Assembly (NCBI GenBank): GCA_017549085.1
Contig: JAFYVO010000094.1
Location: 1 to 20,040, forward strand
Reading direction: 5' to 3'
DNA length: 20,040 nucleotides
DNA from: Thermoguttaceae bacterium
GTDB taxonomy: Bacteria; Planctomycetota; Planctomycetia; Pirellulales; Thermoguttaceae
In this document: piece after piece, positions 605 to 20,040 of the stretch
Position numbering within the stretch: the first letter of the stretch is position 1
Layout of the letters: each line of letters opens with the position of its first letter
Program-made: the position numbers and the translations under genes
Notes under the pieces: model-generated
The model's database searches: none
Seen by the model: only the letters and a program-made list of their open reading frames with translations
What the model was told of the DNA's origin: nothing

Positions 605-783
605 CCGGCGAACTCCTATTCCCTTCAATCGCTCCAACCGGCAAAAACTTTTTTATCGCCGTCTTTGCGGAAAAACGCCGGTTAAACTTGAGGAAATCGG
701 CGGGAAAAATAGCAAAATCGCGCTTTCCCTTTTCCAAAATACCGATTATACTTGCAAAAAAACTCGGTAAAAAAGCGCGTCGC

Positions 784-824
784 GTCAAACCGCGGTTTGA
801 CTTTTGGGCGCGATTTTGTAAAAT
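784..824 (+). promoter_or_regulatory. Candidate dnaA promoter with palindromic operator
   Basis: TTGACT (797-802) and TAAAAT (819-824) each match the sigma-70 consensus at five of six bases, with a 16-base spacer. The perfect 18-base palindrome gtcaaaccgcggtttgac (784-801) covers most of the -35 element, which is where a repressor would sit. Transcription would start near 831 and leave a leader of about 345 bases before dnaA. The rest of the 520-1176 gap is AT-rich in places (820-870, 1010-1090). A weaker pair, TGGACA (1022-1027) and TAAACA (1044-1049), could be a second start. I see no coding sequence in this gap. Confidence 0.42.
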
Positions 825-1176
825 TTATTTGTCGAGGGCAAATAATTCGGCTTTTTTTTCGCGCCGACGCCGATAAGGAAGATAGGCGTTTGCGCGCGGC
901 GTCCTTTTACCGCCGCCGACTTGTCTTCGCCCGCTTCAACTTGCCGACGTCCGCCGTCGCGCCGCCGACGTTGAAACGCGTTCGTTTTTCGTTTTATTCC
1001 GCCCGAATAAACGAGACAATTTGGACAAATTAAACCAATTGGATAAACAACGCAACCTTTCAACGCGCGGTCAAGTAAATAAACGTTAAATTTTGCGCGC
1101 CGTCGTCGACGGAACGCCGCCAACGCGCCCGACGCGAAACTTTTTTTCGATCGCCCGAATGCCAACAGAACGAGAA

Positions 1177-3201
1177 ATGAACGTCGACGAAATTTTTCGC
1201 CAAGCGTTGCTCAACCGAATTGGGGAACGTCGATTTTCCTATTGGTTCGCCGGGGCGCGTTTTTCCGCGTCGCCGTCCGGGCTGACCGTTCGCGTCGCCA
1301 ACGAATTCCTTTGCGCGTTCCTTCGTTCGTCTTTCCAACACGAGCTGCAAAAAACTTGCGTCGACGTCGCCGGGGTCGAGTTGCCGATCGAGATTTGTTG
1401 CAACGAAACGCCCGCGTCTCCTTTGCCGCCGTCCGGCCCCGCGCCGCAAGAGCCCGCGCCCGCTTTTTCCGTTCCGCCTTCGTCCCTTCCCGCGCTCGCG
1501 ACCGATTTTTCCGCTCCGAACGGCGCGGCGGCGCAACCGCAAATCGCGTCGCAACCGGCGAAAAGACGGGGCCGTCCGCGTAAAAATCCCCTTCCGCCAA
1601 CCGAAGATCGCCCGTTCGACGCCCCGGAGCCCTTTTTTGAACGTTCCAGTGAACCGAACGCTTACGTTGATTTTGCGTTCAACGACGGCGTTTTTCAAGC
1701 GGCGACGCCCCGACCGGAGCCGACGCCGGCGCGCGTCCCGGCTTCGTCCAACTTCGCGGCTTACCTAAACGGCGCGCCTTCCCAAGATTTCCTCGGCTCG
1801 CTCGTTCCCGCGACCGTTCCGGCTTCGCCGCGTTCCGCGTCTTCCTCGTCAAATCTTCCGGCGGCTCCGAAACGCGGCCGCGGTCGTCCGCGCAAAAATC
1901 CGCTCCCGCCGGAAGCGACCGCCGCGTCGCCGACGTCGCAAGCGCTCGTCCCAACGACGCCCGACGCTTGGAACCTTTCCGAGTCGGAACGCGCCGTTTG
2001 GGCGGCCGGCGCCGGCGACGAAGCGACGCGAGCTCCGCAAAATCGCCGACGCAAGCCGAACGCCGACGACGAAACGCGCGACGACGAAGTCTTGCGCGAC
2101 GCCAACGGCTTCAACATCGTTAAAGTCGCGAAACCGCAAGCGCGAACCGCGGTCGCTTCGTCCGTTCGGTTGGCTTCCCTCGACACGTTCGTCGAAGGTT
2201 TTTCCAATCAATTGGCGCGCAAAATCGCCGACGTCGCGATCCTTCAACCGGGCGCGATGAACCCGATTTTCATTGGCGGCCCGACCAGCGTCGGCAAAAC
2301 GCACCTGTTGGAGGGGATCTGCGAACGCTACGGACGCTACCCCAACCGCAAACCCGCGCTATATATGACGGCGGAACAGTTCACCACCGCGTTTATCCAA
2401 AGTTTGCACGGCGGCGTCGGCTCCTTCCGCGACCGCTTCCGCAACATTTCGCTCCTCGCGATCGACGACCTTCATTTCCTCGAAGGCAAAACGACGACGC
2501 AGGTCGAACTCCTTAGCGTCGTCGATATGTTGCGCCAACGCAACGTTCAACTTGTTTTTTCCGCGAACCGTCCGCTCGCCGAATTGACCAAATTGAGCGG
2601 CGAACTAACGACGCGCGTTCAAGGCGGTTTCGTTTGCCAAATTGGGCCTCCGGAACGGGAAATGTTGTCGCAAATTTTGCGTCAAATGGCGCTCAAACGC
2701 CGAATCGCGCTTTCGGACGAAGTTTGCCGCTTCGTTGTTTCGCGCTTTACGACGCACGCTCGCCAACTTTCCGGCGCGCTGAACCGACTTTATATCGCGC
2801 ACTTAACGACCGGCGCTCCAATCGACGTTCCGTTCGCCCAAGAAGCGCTCGCCGACTTGATCGCGTCGAACGTTCGCGCCGTCAAGCTGGAAGACGTTGA
2901 ACGCGTCGTCCAAGAGACCTTCGGCCTCGACGACGAGGAACTCAAATCGAAATCGCGTTCGAAGCGCTGCGCCGACCCGCGGGCGCTCGCGATGTGGTTG
3001 GCGCGCAAACACACCCGTTCCGCGTTGGCCGAAATCGGCGCCTATTTTGGCGGTCGTCGACACAGCGCGGTTCTCTCGGCGCAAAAAAAAGTCGATCATT
3101 TGCTTAAAACGAACGGCTCGATCGAAAACGGTTCCGCCGCGTTCGACGTCGCCGACGCGATCGAACGAATGGAACGCTCCTTAGCGCGTTCGTCAAGCTA
3201 A
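1177..3201 (+). CDS. dnaA: Chromosomal replication initiator DnaA, with long AT-hook-bearing linker
   Basis: DnaA binds the origin, opens it and loads the helicase. Numbered from the ATG at 1177, domain I is residues 1-80 (RIGERRFSYWF). Then comes a Pro/Ala/Ser-rich linker of about 250 residues, and an AAA+ domain from about 334 with Walker A GPTSVGKT (Lys374), Walker B LLAIDDLHFL (Asp430-Asp431), a box VII arginine in ELTTRVQGG and sensor 2 HARQLSGAL. Domain IV ends with LARKHTRSALAEIGAYFGG and RHSAVLSAQKKV (from 629). The C-terminal sequence has the planctomycete form. At 674 residues it is much longer than the usual 450 or so; the excess is linker holding two RGRPRKNPLPP copies (near 131-141 and 235-245). 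Starts at ATG 1159 or TTG 1093 are possible; 1177 fits domain I best and has weak purines upstream. dnaN, recF and gyrB are not adjacent. Confidence 0.93.
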   Translation: MNVDEIFRQALLNRIGERRFSYWFAGARFSASPSGLTVRVANEFLCAFLRSSFQHELQKTCVDVAGVELPIEICCNETPASPLPPSGPAPQEPAPAFSVPPSSLPALATDFSAPNGAAAQPQIASQPAKRRGRPRKNPLPPTEDRPFDAPEPFFERSSEPNAYVDFAFNDGVFQAATPRPEPTPARVPASSNFAAYLNGAPSQDFLGSLVPATVPASPRSASSSSNLPAAPKRGRGRPRKNPLPPEATAASPTSQALVPTTPDAWNLSESERAVWAAGAGDEATRAPQNRRRKPNADDETRDDEVLRDANGFNIVKVAKPQARTAVASSVRLASLDTFVEGFSNQLARKIADVAILQPGAMNPIFIGGPTSVGKTHLLEGICERYGRYPNRKPALYMTAEQFTTAFIQSLHGGVGSFRDRFRNISLLAIDDLHFLEGKTTTQVELLSVVDMLRQRNVQLVFSANRPLAELTKLSGELTTRVQGGFVCQIGPPEREMLSQILRQMALKRRIALSDEVCRFVVSRFTTHARQLSGALNRLYIAHLTTGAPIDVPFAQEALADLIASNVRAVKLEDVERVVQETFGLDDEELKSKSRSKRCADPRALAMWLARKHTRSALAEIGAYFGGRRHSAVLSAQKKVDHLLKTNGSIENGSAAFDVADAIERMERSLARSSS

Positions 3202-3531: not shown

Positions 3532-5262
3532 TCAGAAAATTTCGTCGTCGCCGAACGGATCGTCTTCGTCGCTCGCTTCGCTATCGTCGCCGAACGGATC
3601 GTCGTCGGCGTCTTCTGCGTCGGCGGTTTTAGCGCGCGGTTCGTCGTCGGCGAACGGGTCGTCTTCGGCGACTTCGGAGTCTTCGTCGCTCGCTTCGTCA
3701 TCGTCGCCAAACGAATCGTCTTCGGCGCTCGGAACGGTCGCGTCGGCGTTAGAAACGGCGGGTTTCGCGGCGTCTTCGACCCCGGTTTCGATCGCGCGCG
3801 CCAAACGAGCGGCGACGTCGGCGCAAGTTTCGTCGCGATGACGCACCGGCTCGACCTGTTGGGTTTCGCGCAAGCATTGAACCAATCCGTCGGCGGAAAC
3901 CAAATAAACGCGGTCCGTTTCTTGGTTAAAAATTTGGAACTTCGTCGGCGAAAGGGCCAACGTCTTCAAACGAGCGCCGTTCGAGCGATCCAACACCGCC
4001 AAGCGGTCGAGTTGGTCGAAGACGTAAAGGCGCGTCTCGGACGCGGAAATGAAACGCTTAACGCCGGAAGCGCGCCAGTTTTCGAGCCCGGTTTTCAAGT
4101 CGAGCGCGAAGAAGTCGCCGGATTCGACCGGAACGTAAACGTTGTAAACGAGTTCTTTCGTCGCGGAAAAATCTTTAAAAGCCGAAACGCGTTCGCGCAC
4201 CGGGCTTTGCGTCAAGTAATTCCAACGCACCTTGCCGTTGGCGTCGTTAATCGCGAAAACGTTGCCGGATTCGACGCCGACGATCGCGAGCCCGCCCTTG
4301 CGGCGCGACGCTTCCAAGACCATATTTTGCGCGGAAACGTCTTGCGGCACATAGAACGGCGCGCTCGAAACGTCGTCGCGCGGCGCTAAAAAGCGATTTC
4401 CAAGACGCGACTCGTTCACGTAAGCGATCTGCGGCGTCGCTTGCAATTTATACAGGAGTTGCAACGGATTATTCACCGCGCTGCGTTGCAGTTCGCCAAT
4501 CATCAACCAACCTTGATCGGTCGTCCAAATCAAACGGTCGACGCCGTAAGCCTGCGCGCCTAAGATCGGCGCGGAGTACGCGACGCCCAACGTCGGGCAC
4601 TGCGCCGGACGCGCTTCGTCAAGGGGCGCGAGCAGATATTGCTTCGACCCGTTCGCCGCGTAATCCGCTTCAAGCTCCGCCTTCATTTCTCCGGCCATTT
4701 TGACGTCTTTGGTCGCTTCCATCATCGCTTCAAGCGTTTTTTGCGCTTCGAGGCGCGCCGTTTCGCGACGCTTGACGGGATAGGCGTAAATCCGTTGCGA
4801 ATAAACCGGAACGTAAACTTCGCGCTCGGTCGCGACCGGAGCCGCCGACGGTTGCCCGAAAACTTCCGTTTCATCGAGGAACTTGCCGCTAAAACGATCG
4901 TAAACGACCAAACGCGTTCCGCAAAGAACGGCGACAATTTTACTATTGATCGCCGGCGCGGTCAAATACTCGCGCCCGACGTTGACGGTCCAAAGGGTCG
5001 TTCCGTTCTCCGCGTCGATCGCTTGGAGGACGCCGCCGCTGGTCGTAATAAATACGACGCCGTCTTGAAGCGTCGCGCTGGTAACTTCCTCGCGGTCTTG
5101 ATCGAGCGTCGCTTGCGCGAACCAAGCGCGAGTCAGCCCGGCCGCTTGAGCGTCCCTCTCCGCGACAAGGCGGGATTTAGCGATCCCCGCCGCCGTCGCG
5201 TTCGCGGCGACGCAAACGCTCATAAGACAAAAAATCAAGCCAATCGCGAAATGTCGTTTCAT
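3532..5262 (-). CDS. Exported PQQ-like β-propeller protein with acidic DDPFGDD tail
   Basis: A 576-residue protein with a signal peptide (about residues 1-25, hydrophobic AIGLIFCLMSVCVAA), so it acts outside the cytoplasm. The body has repeated PQQ/Trp-docking-like blades, for example GGVLQAIDAENGTTLWTVN, SGNVFAINDANGKVRWNY and SGDFFALDLKTGLENWRA, as in BamB-like propellers. A charged helical insertion (about 165-205) interrupts the blades. The last 75 residues or so are almost all acidic with four copies of a DD-(S/P)-F-(G/A)-DD motif. The start is secure: AGAAGGA lies about six bases before the ATG. A possible promoter is TATAAT at 5425-5420 with TTGCGC at 5447-5442, on the minus strand. 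Propellers of this kind often serve as protein-interaction scaffolds in outer-membrane assembly, but no specific role can be assigned, and no PQQ-enzyme catalytic motifs were recognised. Confidence 0.88.
   Translation of the reverse strand: MKRHFAIGLIFCLMSVCVAANATAAGIAKSRLVAERDAQAAGLTRAWFAQATLDQDREEVTSATLQDGVVFITTSGGVLQAIDAENGTTLWTVNVGREYLTAPAINSKIVAVLCGTRLVVYDRFSGKFLDETEVFGQPSAAPVATEREVYVPVYSQRIYAYPVKRRETARLEAQKTLEAMMEATKDVKMAGEMKAELEADYAANGSKQYLLAPLDEARPAQCPTLGVAYSAPILGAQAYGVDRLIWTTDQGWLMIGELQRSAVNNPLQLLYKLQATPQIAYVNESRLGNRFLAPRDDVSSAPFYVPQDVSAQNMVLEASRRKGGLAIVGVESGNVFAINDANGKVRWNYLTQSPVRERVSAFKDFSATKELVYNVYVPVESGDFFALDLKTGLENWRASGVKRFISASETRLYVFDQLDRLAVLDRSNGARLKTLALSPTKFQIFNQETDRVYLVSADGLVQCLRETQQVEPVRHRDETCADVAARLARAIETGVEDAAKPAVSNADATVPSAEDDSFGDDDEASDEDSEVAEDDPFADDEPRAKTADAEDADDDPFGDDSEASDEDDPFGDDEIF
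3541..3720 (-). repeat. Intragenic repeats encoding the acidic DDPFGDD tail
   Basis: Four related units around 3545, 3587, 3644 and 3704 (on the plus strand cgtcgccgaacggatcgtc and variants) encode the DDPFGDD-type motifs. A longer block at 3561-3603 recurs with a few changes at 3678-3720, which suggests growth by internal duplication. Confidence 0.75.
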
Positions 5263-15921: not shown

Positions 15922-18900
15922 TTACTTCTCGGCGGTCTCCGACTCGGCGGCTTCCGGAATCTCGCAAACGACGCGGAAACCGACGTTAAACGCGCCTTGC
16001 CAAGGTCGTAACGACGTTCGGTATTCGCTTCGGGCGTTGATCGGGCGATCGTACCAAGAGCCGCCGCGGACGACGCGTTCCCCTTCGAGGTTCGCGGCGT
16101 CGCCGTCCGCCGTCGGGCGCGCTTTCGCCAAGCTCGCCGTCCACTCGGCGACGTTGCCGTGCATATCGAACAGCCCCCAAGCGTTCGGCTCGTACTTTCG
16201 CGGTTTTTCGGACAAAAATCCGCCGTCTTCGACGTCAGCGATCCTCGGAATCCAGTGGTCGAATTCGGTTCCCCGTTCGAGCTTGATCTCTTTGAAGTAC
16301 TGATGGCAAACGAAGTTGCGCAGCGTCGCGTCGGCAAGGTTCGCAAACCGCGAAAAGTCCGCGTCGACGGCGCCGTAATTCATCGACGTCGCCGTTCCCG
16401 CTCGACACGCGTATTCCCACTCCGCTTCGCTCGGAAGTCGGAACGTTCGCCCGCTCGCTTCGGAAATCTTTTGGCAAAAATCGTTTGCGTCGTTCCAGGA
16501 GACGCGAACGACCGGCAGTTCCGGCCCGTTGACGTAAAAGCCGCGAACGCCGAACTGGAACCCGTGCCGCGACTCGACGCCGGAGTCGTGCGACGGCTCG
16601 ACCAGCTCGTAAAGCGCGTTCGTCGTCTCGTCGACGCTCAACCAAAACGAACGCTTAATCTCGACGACGCAAGGCTTTTCGTCGTCGTAACGCGCCCCGT
16701 CCGGCGACTGCGCGCCCATAACGAACGTCCCCGCCGGAATCAAACGGAATTCCATTTTCATCCCAGGAATCGGTTCCAAAACGGTCGACGTTTTCGTTCG
16801 GTCGCCGAAAAGGCGCTCCGCTTCGTCCTCTTGTCGCTTCTTCGCTTCCGGCGCGTCGAAGGCCCAATCGAGGAGCGGCGCCGCGTCGGAAGTCGTTTTC
16901 TTCGCGAGTTTTGCGAGCGCGGCGGCGCGAACGGTTTCCCCGTCGGCGAAGGGGGCGACGGCGTTCGAATCCGCGGCGAACGGATTCGACGGAATAACGC
17001 TCCAGTTCGTTTGGGACGTTTCGGCGGCGACCTTCGGGTCCCAAGTCGTCGGGCGTTTGACCTCTTGGTCGACGCCGCCGCTCTTGTACAGCTCCATCAC
17101 GTCGCGACGCAACTTGTTCCAGCGCGCGGCGTTGGCGGAATCGCCCTGTTCGCCCCAATAACCGTGATACGGCGCGTTGAGGTCGATCCAGGTCAAGAGC
17201 CGATCCCAAGACTCCGCGTCGAGCCGAACGCCGTAATGCCCTTTGACGAGTAATTTATACAAGTCGGTCGTTTCCGCCGCAAACTCCGTCGGCATAAGGA
17301 GATGGTAATCGCTCTCCATCCCGGGTCGGCGGACGTAACGGTGCAGCGCGTCGTAGCTCGTCGACCAATTCCCGGGCCGAATTGAAACCGGAAAATACGT
17401 TCCGTACCCCTTAATATTCTCCAAACCGCGCAAGTCGAACGCCCCGAGCGGCGCGCTTTCGTCGCCGTTATGACAGGCGACGCAGTAACGGTCGAGAACC
17501 GGCTGCACCTCGGCGCGGAAGGAAAAACCGCGACTCGGGCCGCGCCAATATTCGATTTCGCTCGTTTTCATCCGTTGCACGACGGTCGGGTCGAGCGAAG
17601 TCGGCGAAACGCTGTTCTGATCTTCGTGGCAACCGACGCACGACAGGTTTTCGCCCGGCATCGCGGTGAACCAACTGCGCATAATTTGCAGCGCTTTCCC
17701 GTTTTCGTCGAGCGGCTGAATCGAAATCGGCGTGTTCGCCGGAACCTTAAAGAGCGCCGAACCGTTCGGCTCGACCGGCACGACGCCGAGCGTGTTGCGC
17801 ACGTCGCAGGGCCCCTCCGCGCCGACGCCGCCGATCGTCCCGCCCATATTCGGATAAAGGTAATTGTAAGTAAAGAGGCGCAACGACTTAACCGTTCCGC
17901 GCGGCACGTTCTTCAAACCGTCGCCGACGTAAATATCGGCGATGAAAACGGTCGCGTCGTCGCGACTTTCGTCGATTCGGTCGGCGATAACCGGCGGGCG
18001 TTCCGTCGGACGCAACGGGATCGGCTCGAAGTGCGCAAAGCCTTGCTCCTTCGAGAGTAAGATCATATTGTCGTCCGTGTCGACGAGGTAAATCCCCCAG
18101 CCGTCTTGCGGATTGAGGCACGCGGAAACGAGGTAATAATCGGCGTCGAGCGGGTACGGATGCAAAAATTTCGGCCAAGCCTCGTTCACGAGCGTGTCGA
18201 CAATCAGCGTGTCGTCGTATTTCGGGTCGGTTTTCGACGCGACGATCGGCGTTTTCGCGCAAATCCGACGAACGGCGCCGGACGCTTCTTTCCGCCCTTT
18301 GCGCGCGTCGAAAAGGACGAGTTCGCCCATTCGCGGAACGCCGTGGTGCCCGCCGACGATCGCGACGAACTTCGACGGTTCCCCCGGAATCGGGCGCGCG
18401 TAAAACATCGAGTTCGGCCAATAGGAATTCGTGCCGTAAAACGAGTTCTGGTTCGTGCCGTCCGGATTCATCAGGAAGAGAAGCCGCGAATGCGCGTGCG
18501 GAATGTCGGCGTATTCCCAACGTTGGTAAAGTATTCTGCCGTCTTCGGTTACCGTCGGATGCCAGTTGTGTTCTTGGTCGAACGTCAAGCGGCGAATCGT
18601 CTTCTTTTCGTCGGCGTACATTCGATACGTGTTCGTAACGCGGGTCGACCCGTTGACGCAAGGCACCGCGATGTAACAGGCGCTCGACGTGTAAACGATC
18701 GACTCGTCCGGCAGGTAACACGCGTCGTAAGAGTTAGCGTCGGGCAAGTTAGGGAGCATTTCCTTGGCGGGCGACGCGACGATTTTTTCGCCGTCGTTCG
18801 TCAATTTCGTTTCGAAAACGTTCCACTGCCCGTTTTCGCGCGTCGAGCTGAAGAGGACTTTTTCGCCGTCGAAGTGCAAGTCGACGTCGCCGACGAACGC

Positions 18901-20040
18901 CGGTTTTTCCGGACGATAAACTTCGCGCGGAACGGCCGGATAACGCGCCGAACCGTCGAGCGTCAAGCGGTAAAGACCGTCGTCGAACGCCTTAGGATTC
19001 AGCGCGCTATTGCTGACCCAGTTGTTGACGAGGCCGAGGTCGCGAGCGTTGCGCCGCACGAAGAGAATATCGTCGAAGTCGAAAAGCGGATTCGCGCGCC
19101 CCAAACGAGAATAGAGGCGAACGTCGGCGAGAAATTCGCGAACGAACGCTTCTTTTTCCGCGTCGGACGGTTCGTCGGAAAGCGTTTCGTTCCAAGCGTT
19201 TAAACCGTTCAAGCGCGCGTCGAACGTCTCGGAGAGCGTCGCGAAGTCGGGCCCGAATTTTTCCGCGACTTCCTCTTCGCCGAACCGCTCCGCCAGCGTC
19301 GCCAAGAGTTTTCGGCTCTTTTCGAGCAGAAGGCGACGCCGTTTAACGTCGACTTTAAATTCGACCGTAAAGTCCGCGGGCGCGTCGACTTCCGCCGAGC
19401 CGTCCGCTTTTTTCGACGCAACTCGCGCCGCAACCGCAACCGCCGCGCCGCTCTTTTCGTCTTCCGCCGCGAACATTTCCGGCGTATAGGTCAACTCGTT
19501 GTTCCAGTCGGGTTTAAACGTTTTTTGCGGAAGAATTTCGACGCTTAATTCGTCTTCCGGGACGAGCGCGGCGCTCGTTTCGAGCCCGAAATGGTCCTCG
19601 AACGTTTCGCCGGACTCCCCTTTGCGAGCGCGGTCGACCGCCGGGTCTCGCGTCTCAAAGGCTCCGTTGGCGCCGTACTCAAAATCGACCGCGGCGCGGG
19701 GCGTCGGCCAATCGACCGGGCCGTCGAATTGCGGCGACAACCGGAACGCGACGACGTGCGGAATGCAAGTTTCCCGCGAAAAGGCGATAACGCGTTCCCC
19801 CGCCTTCGTTTCGAAGTCGGCGACGTCGCGCCACGCGGCGGTTCCGACGTTCCAACTTCCGGTCGTCTCGGCGAGGCCGTTCGTCGTCAGCGTTTCGCCG
19901 TCGAGGTAAAACGTTACCGGACGGCTTTCTTGCGCGGCGAAGAGCGCCGAAAGTTTGTAAACGCCGTCTTTGGGGAACGTTAGCTTGTACTCGGCGCGAT
20001 TCGGATATTCTCCGTTGTTCCCGAGAATCGGCTCCGGGCC
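15922..20040 (-). CDS. Giant exported-type fusion: CBM-like, hydrazine-synthase-α-like propeller, dihaem, SUMF1 (N-terminus missing)
   Basis: The frame is open to the window's right edge, so the start lies beyond it; 1372 residues are visible. The TTG near 19740 is not a likely start because the sequence before it is protein-like. Counting from the edge: residues 1-105 resemble a carbohydrate-binding β-sandwich (DGVYKLSALFA, PVTFYLDGE, TTGSWNVG); 220-335 are helical; 380-690 form a PD40-type propeller of the hydrazine-synthase-α-like family, with SSACYIAVPCV and GRILYQRWEY. Two c-haem sites follow, CVGCH (801-805) and CVACH (853-857). Residues 1095-1358 are a SUMF1/formylglycine-generating-like domain (IPAGTFVMG, RLPSEAEWEYACRAG, GLFDMHGNVAEW, VVRGGSWYDRP, NVGFRVVCE). 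c-type haem implies action outside the cytoplasm. Its SUMF1 part lacks the catalytic cysteines of true formylglycine-generating enzymes. It is not evidence of anammox; related proteins occur in non-anammox planctomycetes. Substrate unknown. Confidence 0.88.
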   Translation of the reverse strand, partial: GPEPILGNNGEYPNRAEYKLTFPKDGVYKLSALFAAQESRPVTFYLDGETLTTNGLAETTGSWNVGTAAWRDVADFETKAGERVIAFSRETCIPHVVAFRLSPQFDGPVDWPTPRAAVDFEYGANGAFETRDPAVDRARKGESGETFEDHFGLETSAALVPEDELSVEILPQKTFKPDWNNELTYTPEMFAAEDEKSGAAVAVAARVASKKADGSAEVDAPADFTVEFKVDVKRRRLLLEKSRKLLATLAERFGEEEVAEKFGPDFATLSETFDARLNGLNAWNETLSDEPSDAEKEAFVREFLADVRLYSRLGRANPLFDFDDILFVRRNARDLGLVNNWVSNSALNPKAFDDGLYRLTLDGSARYPAVPREVYRPEKPAFVGDVDLHFDGEKVLFSSTRENGQWNVFETKLTNDGEKIVASPAKEMLPNLPDANSYDACYLPDESIVYTSSACYIAVPCVNGSTRVTNTYRMYADEKKTIRRLTFDQEHNWHPTVTEDGRILYQRWEYADIPHAHSRLLFLMNPDGTNQNSFYGTNSYWPNSMFYARPIPGEPSKFVAIVGGHHGVPRMGELVLFDARKGRKEASGAVRRICAKTPIVASKTDPKYDDTLIVDTLVNEAWPKFLHPYPLDADYYLVSACLNPQDGWGIYLVDTDDNMILLSKEQGFAHFEPIPLRPTERPPVIADRIDESRDDATVFIADIYVGDGLKNVPRGTVKSLRLFTYNYLYPNMGGTIGGVGAEGPCDVRNTLGVVPVEPNGSALFKVPANTPISIQPLDENGKALQIMRSWFTAMPGENLSCVGCHEDQNSVSPTSLDPTVVQRMKTSEIEYWRGPSRGFSFRAEVQPVLDRYCVACHNGDESAPLGAFDLRGLENIKGYGTYFPVSIRPGNWSTSYDALHRYVRRPGMESDYHLLMPTEFAAETTDLYKLLVKGHYGVRLDAESWDRLLTWIDLNAPYHGYWGEQGDSANAARWNKLRRDVMELYKSGGVDQEVKRPTTWDPKVAAETSQTNWSVIPSNPFAADSNAVAPFADGETVRAAALAKLAKKTTSDAAPLLDWAFDAPEAKKRQEDEAERLFGDRTKTSTVLEPIPGMKMEFRLIPAGTFVMGAQSPDGARYDDEKPCVVEIKRSFWLSVDETTNALYELVEPSHDSGVESRHGFQFGVRGFYVNGPELPVVRVSWNDANDFCQKISEASGRTFRLPSEAEWEYACRAGTATSMNYGAVDADFSRFANLADATLRNFVCHQYFKEIKLERGTEFDHWIPRIADVEDGGFLSEKPRKYEPNAWGLFDMHGNVAEWTASLAKARPTADGDAANLEGERVVRGGSWYDRPINARSEYRTSLRPWQGAFNVGFRVVCEIPEAAESETAEK

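Follow-up and report, generated by a model that had tools for sequence, protein, structure and literature searches.

Conserved AT-hooks in the linker of a planctomycete DnaA: a probable genus-specific elaboration of the replication initiator

The analysed stretch of DNA (20,040 nucleotides, hereafter the window) carries a dnaA gene on its forward strand, preceded by a promoter-like sequence and an AT-rich block, and the features discussed here are collected in Table 1. The open reading frame runs from 1093 to 3201 (+), with ATG 1177 or ATG 1159 as the likely start. Identification of the product as a DnaA appears sound. Against Pfam cut-offs of 23 and 31.5 bits, the protein scores 113.1 with Bac_DnaA and 75.7 with Bac_DnaA_C, which covers the C-terminal helix-turn-helix. 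Residues 334-646 align to solved DnaA structures (8btg, 2z4r), and the Walker A motif that marks DnaA as an AAA+ protein reads GGPTSVGKTH in alignment with 8btg. Domain I of the window protein lies under the DnaA_N cut-off (21.5 against 24.6 bits), which is exceeded in genus relatives L052 and L053 among the eight relatives scanned; in an AlphaFold model, blocks within residues 1-70 (domain I) are placed at a pLDDT of 83-87. From the relatives’ profile matches and this confidently predicted fold, we regard domain I as present in the window DnaA. The order of domains, the ATPase family and the DNA-binding family are the same as in a standard DnaA (8btg, Streptomyces), from which the window protein differs in having conserved AT-hooks in its linker and a recognition loop of the form [RK]HSA in place of the DHTT of 8btg. 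Elsewhere in the window, the reverse strand encodes what by eye is a PQQ-like repeat protein (3532-5262), which closes with near-repeats of an acidic DDDPFGDD unit, and a 1272-residue open reading frame (15922-19740). The last third of the latter resembles, by eye, a formylglycine-generating-enzyme domain and follows a cytochrome-like CxxCH region.

Table 1. Features of the dnaA locus in the window.
Feature	Position	Strand	Remark
AT-rich block, 51 bases, with CGATTAT at 743-749	729..779	+	Candidate DnaA or regulator target
Sigma-70-like promoter TTGACT-N16-TAAAAT	797..824	+	From sequence; downstream of block 729-779
dnaA-1	1177..3198	+	674 codons from ATG 1177; Bac_DnaA and Bac_DnaA_C above the Pfam cut-offs; alignable to 8btg and 2z4r
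DnaA domain I	1177..1404	+	DnaA_N profile, predicted fold
Linker (domain II)	1405..2175	+	About 257 residues, predicted disordered
AT-hook 1, RGRPRKNPLPP	1567..1599	+	R131-P141 counted from ATG 1177
AT-hook 2, RGRPRKNPLPP	1879..1911	+	R235-P245 counted from ATG 1177
Conserved linker motif LSESERAVWAAG	1975..2010	+	Helix 269-278 in model, low confidence
Third basic motif RRRKP, degenerate	2044..2058	+	Genus comparison
Conserved linker motif VLRDANGFNIV	2089..2121	+	Genus conservation
Domain IV recognition-loop motif GGRRHSAV	3049..3072	+	Replaces GGRDHTTV of solved 8btg

Domain II of DnaA is regarded as variable and flexible, with its length being of importance, and linkers of more than 200 residues are known from Streptomyces DnaA (PMC13270200). 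The linker of the window protein is rich in Pro, Ala, Ser and Arg, in a window of 59% GC. Residues 77-347 are modelled with a pLDDT below 50, mostly around 30 (from a six-row alignment, with a whole-model mean pLDDT of 47), and residues 101-324 gave no match among solved chains at E-values up to 10. The original prediction had placed two copies of RGRPRKNPLPP in this linker, about 103 residues apart, and had called their core a classic AT-hook. Both copies lie where it put them (Table 1), although their starts are 104 residues apart, and the core is a canonical one within a linker predicted to be disordered. An AT-hook is described as a GRP core with basic flanks and often prolines (PMC11354804), and these elements are found in KRRGRPRKNPLPP and KRGRGRPRKNPLPP. 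Hook 1 and hook 2 use different synonymous codons at six of their 11 positions, which rules out a recent duplication of the hook at the DNA level. As a side observation, the string GNFNIV in a sister-clade locus (L066) resembles the linker motif VLRDANGFNIV.

Taken alone, the Pfam AT_hook model (PF02178; just 13 positions, curated cut-off of 17.4 bits) is little proof of a hook. Hook 2 scores 12.4 and 15.8 bits in two scans, both under the cut-off. The latter is the best AT_hook match in the draft genome, but a weaker second place on contig C388 reaches 14.7 bits and matches under the cut-off also occur in 7 of 14 control genomes, which is why the model carries little weight by itself. The cut-off was reached by none of the nine genus proteins scanned, the best scoring 17.1 bits, and two of eight relatives scanned had no AT_hook listed at E-values up to 1.

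Comparison across Planctomycetota DnaA, which the hook survey covered, allowed us to place the motif taxonomically. The pattern [RK]GRP[RK] is present in the DnaA linker of all 20 sampled genomes of the genus, with two or three hooks per complete protein. The six genomes nearest to that of the window come from deer, goat and buffalo gut. The window clade comprises seven genomes and has two hooks; five of its seven loci have RGRKPK as the third basic motif, which in the window is degraded to RRRKP. In the other clade of the genus (13 genomes), a third RGRP copy is found in 12 loci, and this third hook reads RGRPKG in 11 loci; the thirteenth locus, L015, is without hook 1. Hook 1 is missing from two loci in all, L007, where the contig is cut, and L015, where the frame starts late, and these show one and two hooks respectively. 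Outside the genus we collected 130 DnaA sequences (89 family, 21 order, 20 phylum), drawn from 99 other family, 23 order and 149 phylum genomes, with several of the phylum picks made for long frames. None of these 130 linkers holds [RK]GRP[RK], four of them being cut at the 5′ end (L030, L141, L144, L217). When everything before Walker A is considered, one of the 130 has the pattern (L224), far upstream of domain I; for L208, which gave no Walker A match, the scan covered the entire frame. Looser single strings occur outside the genus, namely [RK]GRP in L027 and L028 and GRP[RK] in L022, L070 and L189. Among the sampled DnaA, the hooks are therefore confined to the genus, and the framing of the original prediction, which spoke of planctomycetes at large, was too broad. 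On a FastTree phylogeny of 130 DnaA (20 from the genus, 89 from the family and 21 from the order), a single change of state accounts for the hooks, and the hook group has a support of 100, some long branches of the tree lying away from this group. The hooks thus appear to have been gained once, at the base of the genus.

The aligned linkers also show how differently hooks and flanks evolve. The core RGRPRK, counted on aligned columns and not on cores picked by the string RGRP, is invariant for hook 1 in 18 rows and for hook 2 in 20, with no amino-acid mismatch in 2076 pairwise comparisons while codons vary. Within the window clade, the 12 core codons accumulate 51 synonymous and no nonsynonymous pairwise differences, and pN/pS is 0.62 for the linker outside the hooks and 0.059 for domains III-IV. 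For all 20 species the values are 0.05 for hook cores, 0.76 for the remainder of the linker and 0.35 for domains III-IV, all pN/pS values being uncorrected and taken over pairs that are not independent. Nonsynonymous core differences were computed at 73 for the other clade and 147 for all 20 species, yet amino-acid mismatch is zero; we attribute these counts to averaging over the paths that link arginine codons of the CGN and AGR types. Mean conservation is 0.93 in hook columns versus 0.54 in other linker columns (Mann-Whitney p 3e-11). Hook-to-hook spacing ranges from 53 to 144 residues across the genus, so that each hook looks like an independent bead. On these figures, the hooks are constrained at least as much as domains III-IV, and the linker outside them only weakly. 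The earlier argument that an exact repeat implies selection is borne out: the pattern is one of strong purifying selection on the hooks with drifting flanks, and aligning the linker with those of relatives revealed neither the absence of the motif from close relatives nor the lack of conservation that would have spoken against it.

The second departure from a standard DnaA concerns domain IV. The canonical DnaA-box loop GGRDHTTV is not the one found in the window DnaA, which has GGRRHSAV. Of the 19 genus rows that could be read, 18 have a loop of the form [RK]H[ST]A, whereas SHST is found in 11 of 11 rows of the nearest outgroup, the sister clade, and is the commonest state in the family. In E. 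coli these loop positions contact the 3′ half of the DnaA box. Parts of the change are seen singly elsewhere. In 89 other family DnaA, counted without genus row L024, R or K precedes the His in four and Ala stands two after the His in two, with both together in none; the 79-row set for the rest of the family, used for a loop count and for AT phasing, took in L024. R or K precedes the His in 3 of 21 order rows, and the residue before the His is D or N in 20 of 20 phylum rows. The full loop change and the AT-hooks thus appear to mark the same genus. The loop is a specificity feature that varies within DnaA, and is not decisive for membership of the protein family.

GC skew was used to ask where the gene lies relative to the origin, the genus genomes searched being drafts of 80 to 600 contigs. 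On a 329 kb contig of one relative (G005:C1), which has dnaA at 140 kb, 28 of the 33 10-kb windows show positive skew, to the left of the gene as well as to its right, with no switch; in this relative, the one tested, a location of dnaA at the origin is unsupported. A cluster of loose matches to the DnaA box at 83 kb of the same contig was dropped as a candidate, being an AT-rich stretch (40% GC) covered by open reading frames. In a closed genome of the family (G113), twenty 20-kb skew samples were too mixed to place an origin. The window genome also has a second DnaA (L165, on G000:C188, 3388-5283), apparently without domain I and linker, whose neighbours, named by eye, are an FxsA-like and a folD-like open reading frame. 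Its loop reads NRDHSTT. In an automated reading of eight copies of this second DnaA in the genus, four gave RDHST and one RNHST, two were left unmatched, the window genome's own copy among them, and one yielded no row. In the single-contig order genomes G042 and G059, the record opens with the DnaA that is more distant from the window's, the DnaA of the window type is megabases away, and their annotators seem to have taken the more distant copy as the start of the chromosome.

The explanation that best fits these observations, and which we consider probable, is that the linker carries genuine AT-hooks, gained once and kept by selection, that would give DnaA extra minor-groove contacts and avidity for AT-rich regions. 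In this picture, a disordered tether joins domain I to the ATPase domain and carries the hooks like beads. Each hook would place its RGR core in the minor groove of a short AT-rich tract, close to a site to which the helix-turn-helix of domain IV is bound. With two or three such weak additional contacts, DnaA would bind AT-rich regions, the origin and the dnaA promoter among them, with greater avidity. Confidence differs between the parts of this explanation: minor-groove binding of AT-rich DNA by the hooks is likely, a role at the origin falls just short of an even prospect, and a role in regulating the gene’s own promoter, which is compatible with other roles, is doubtful though possible. 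Counted against the explanation are the AT_hook scores under the cut-off, the lack of a skew switch at dnaA, the second DnaA in the genome, the AT phasing of promoters in hookless relatives (below) and the occurrence of parts of the loop change singly elsewhere. More speculatively, the initiator may, on one branch, have altered or loosened its reading of the DnaA box (SHST to [RK]HSA) and gained linker AT-hooks, with the choice of origin and promoter then made partly through AT-rich minor grooves, much as in fission yeast ORC; we offer this as a tentative idea.

Schizosaccharomyces pombe Orc4, a subunit of the eukaryotic ORC, has nine AT-hooks. They are N-terminal, and the likeness to the genus DnaA lies in the presence of several hooks in a replication initiator. 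The hooks of this subunit prefer AT-rich DNA (PMC6742236, PMC13144144); DNA binding is thus reported for Orc4, and is predicted for the hooks of the genus DnaA. We take the DnaA hooks to be convergent with those of Orc4 and not shared by descent. Bacterial AT-hook proteins are also on record, among them CarD of Myxococcus and the actinobacterial transcription factor WhiB7, neither of which is a replication initiator. Both bind DNA (CarD, PMC4374960; WhiB7, PMC11354804); the hooks of CarD lie in a terminal domain, in contrast to the internal linker of DnaA. HMGA1 and HMGA2 have three AT-hooks on a disordered chain (PMC11354804, PMC4482583), as in the genus DnaA, but are stand-alone architectural proteins and not initiators. 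We found no description of AT-hooks in a DnaA in literature naming both, in a search with thin coverage of subscription journals and none of preprints. Judging from the sequence comparisons, the linker AT-hooks are a real and selected elaboration of DnaA, specific to the genus among the DnaA sampled. A drifting linker that holds hooks constrained at least as much as domains III-IV suggests that a linker can turn into a DNA-binding module. With the genus DnaA, bacteria may provide a natural parallel to the way in which AT-hooks target fission yeast Orc4, and it becomes testable whether an initiator can give up box recognition in exchange for avidity for AT-rich DNA.

There are other possible explanations for the hooks. 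One is autoregulation, in which the dnaA promoter would be their main site of action and the phased AT tracts ahead of its -35 element their target. The block at 729-779 is identical in five genomes of the window clade and has six changes in the sixth, the seventh being cut. All 12 of the anchorable, non-redundant promoters of the genus have an element CGRTTR placed 53-55 bases upstream of TTGAC (shuffle mean 0.10, maximum 2); at the 130 other dnaA loci it is present in 1 of 111 promoter-like sites (L067, in the sister clade). A-tracts recur near -59, -37 and -27 in the genus dnaA promoters, whose AT profile has a 10-bp period that 0 of 2000 shuffles equalled in strength; such phasing would accommodate several contacts with the minor groove along the same helix face. 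CarD applies its hooks to AT-rich DNA that lies upstream of a promoter (PMC4374960). On the other side, weaker AT phasing is found without hooks in the sister clade (10 promoters) and in the other family members (74 promoters), where none of 1000 shuffles reached the observed strength in either set, and none was detected in 18 order promoters (205 of 1000 shuffles as strong). Phasing as a mark of hooked species is weakened by this, and may serve another regulator or RNA polymerase. The DnaA-box-like TTATNNCG[GA] is also not enriched upstream of dnaA, with six sites in 4 of 14 upstream regions against shuffled means of 3.3 sites and 2.9 regions. Autoregulation as the main function is therefore a reading that we hold to be possible and rather unlikely. 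Between promoter and start codon the window has a dnaA leader of about 350 bases (825-1176), and in 14 genus upstream regions the distance from the promoter-like site to domain I is 159-395 bases.

A second alternative is that the hooks are generic basic patches, whose positive charge would bind any DNA, RNA or acidic lipid with no preference for AT. The flanks are indeed rich in K and R, and the position just before the core exchanges K, R and G. However, R, G, R, P, R and K are fixed in the aligned hooks 1 and 2, and the core arginines are never replaced by lysine while the preceding position varies, which argues that an AT-hook core and not merely charge is selected. Several of the nearest relatives, moreover, have long linkers without the core, and we judge generic patches unlikely. 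Alternatively, the hooks might be short linear motifs that dock a protein partner, for example the clamp, a helicase loader or a nucleoid protein, and not DNA. The further conserved linker motifs (LSESER..W, RDANGFNIV) look docking-like, and the second AT-hook of HMGA proteins lies in a protein-interaction region (PMC11354804). Against this, the hooks fit the described DNA-binding core in a protein that already binds DNA, and our analysis gave no pointer to any partner, so that docking in place of DNA binding seems improbable.

That GC-rich codons for R, G and P merely yielded GRP strings in a low-complexity linker, as its Pro, Ala and Arg content and the base composition of the window could suggest, is a negligible prospect, ruled out by shuffling, by the count of the codon pattern, by the distribution in 20 of 20 genus versus 0 of 130 outside linkers and by amino acids that stay invariant while their codons vary. 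In 100,000 shuffles of the 257-residue linker, an exact repeated 8-mer arose in 17 and at least one GRPRK in 42. A search of the 2.30 Mb assembly (65% complete) for the codon pattern of GRPRKN gave exactly two hits, each of them in dnaA, and the reversed pattern, as a control, gave none. Across all 20 genus genomes the GRPRKN pattern occurs at 58 places, 36 of them in dnaA, with 11 for the control. Outside dnaA, the string GGACGCCCGCGTAAGAAT is found in three genus genomes (G010:C123:2740, G017:C57:54399, G015:C60:3266), where it possibly belongs to another conserved AT-hook gene.
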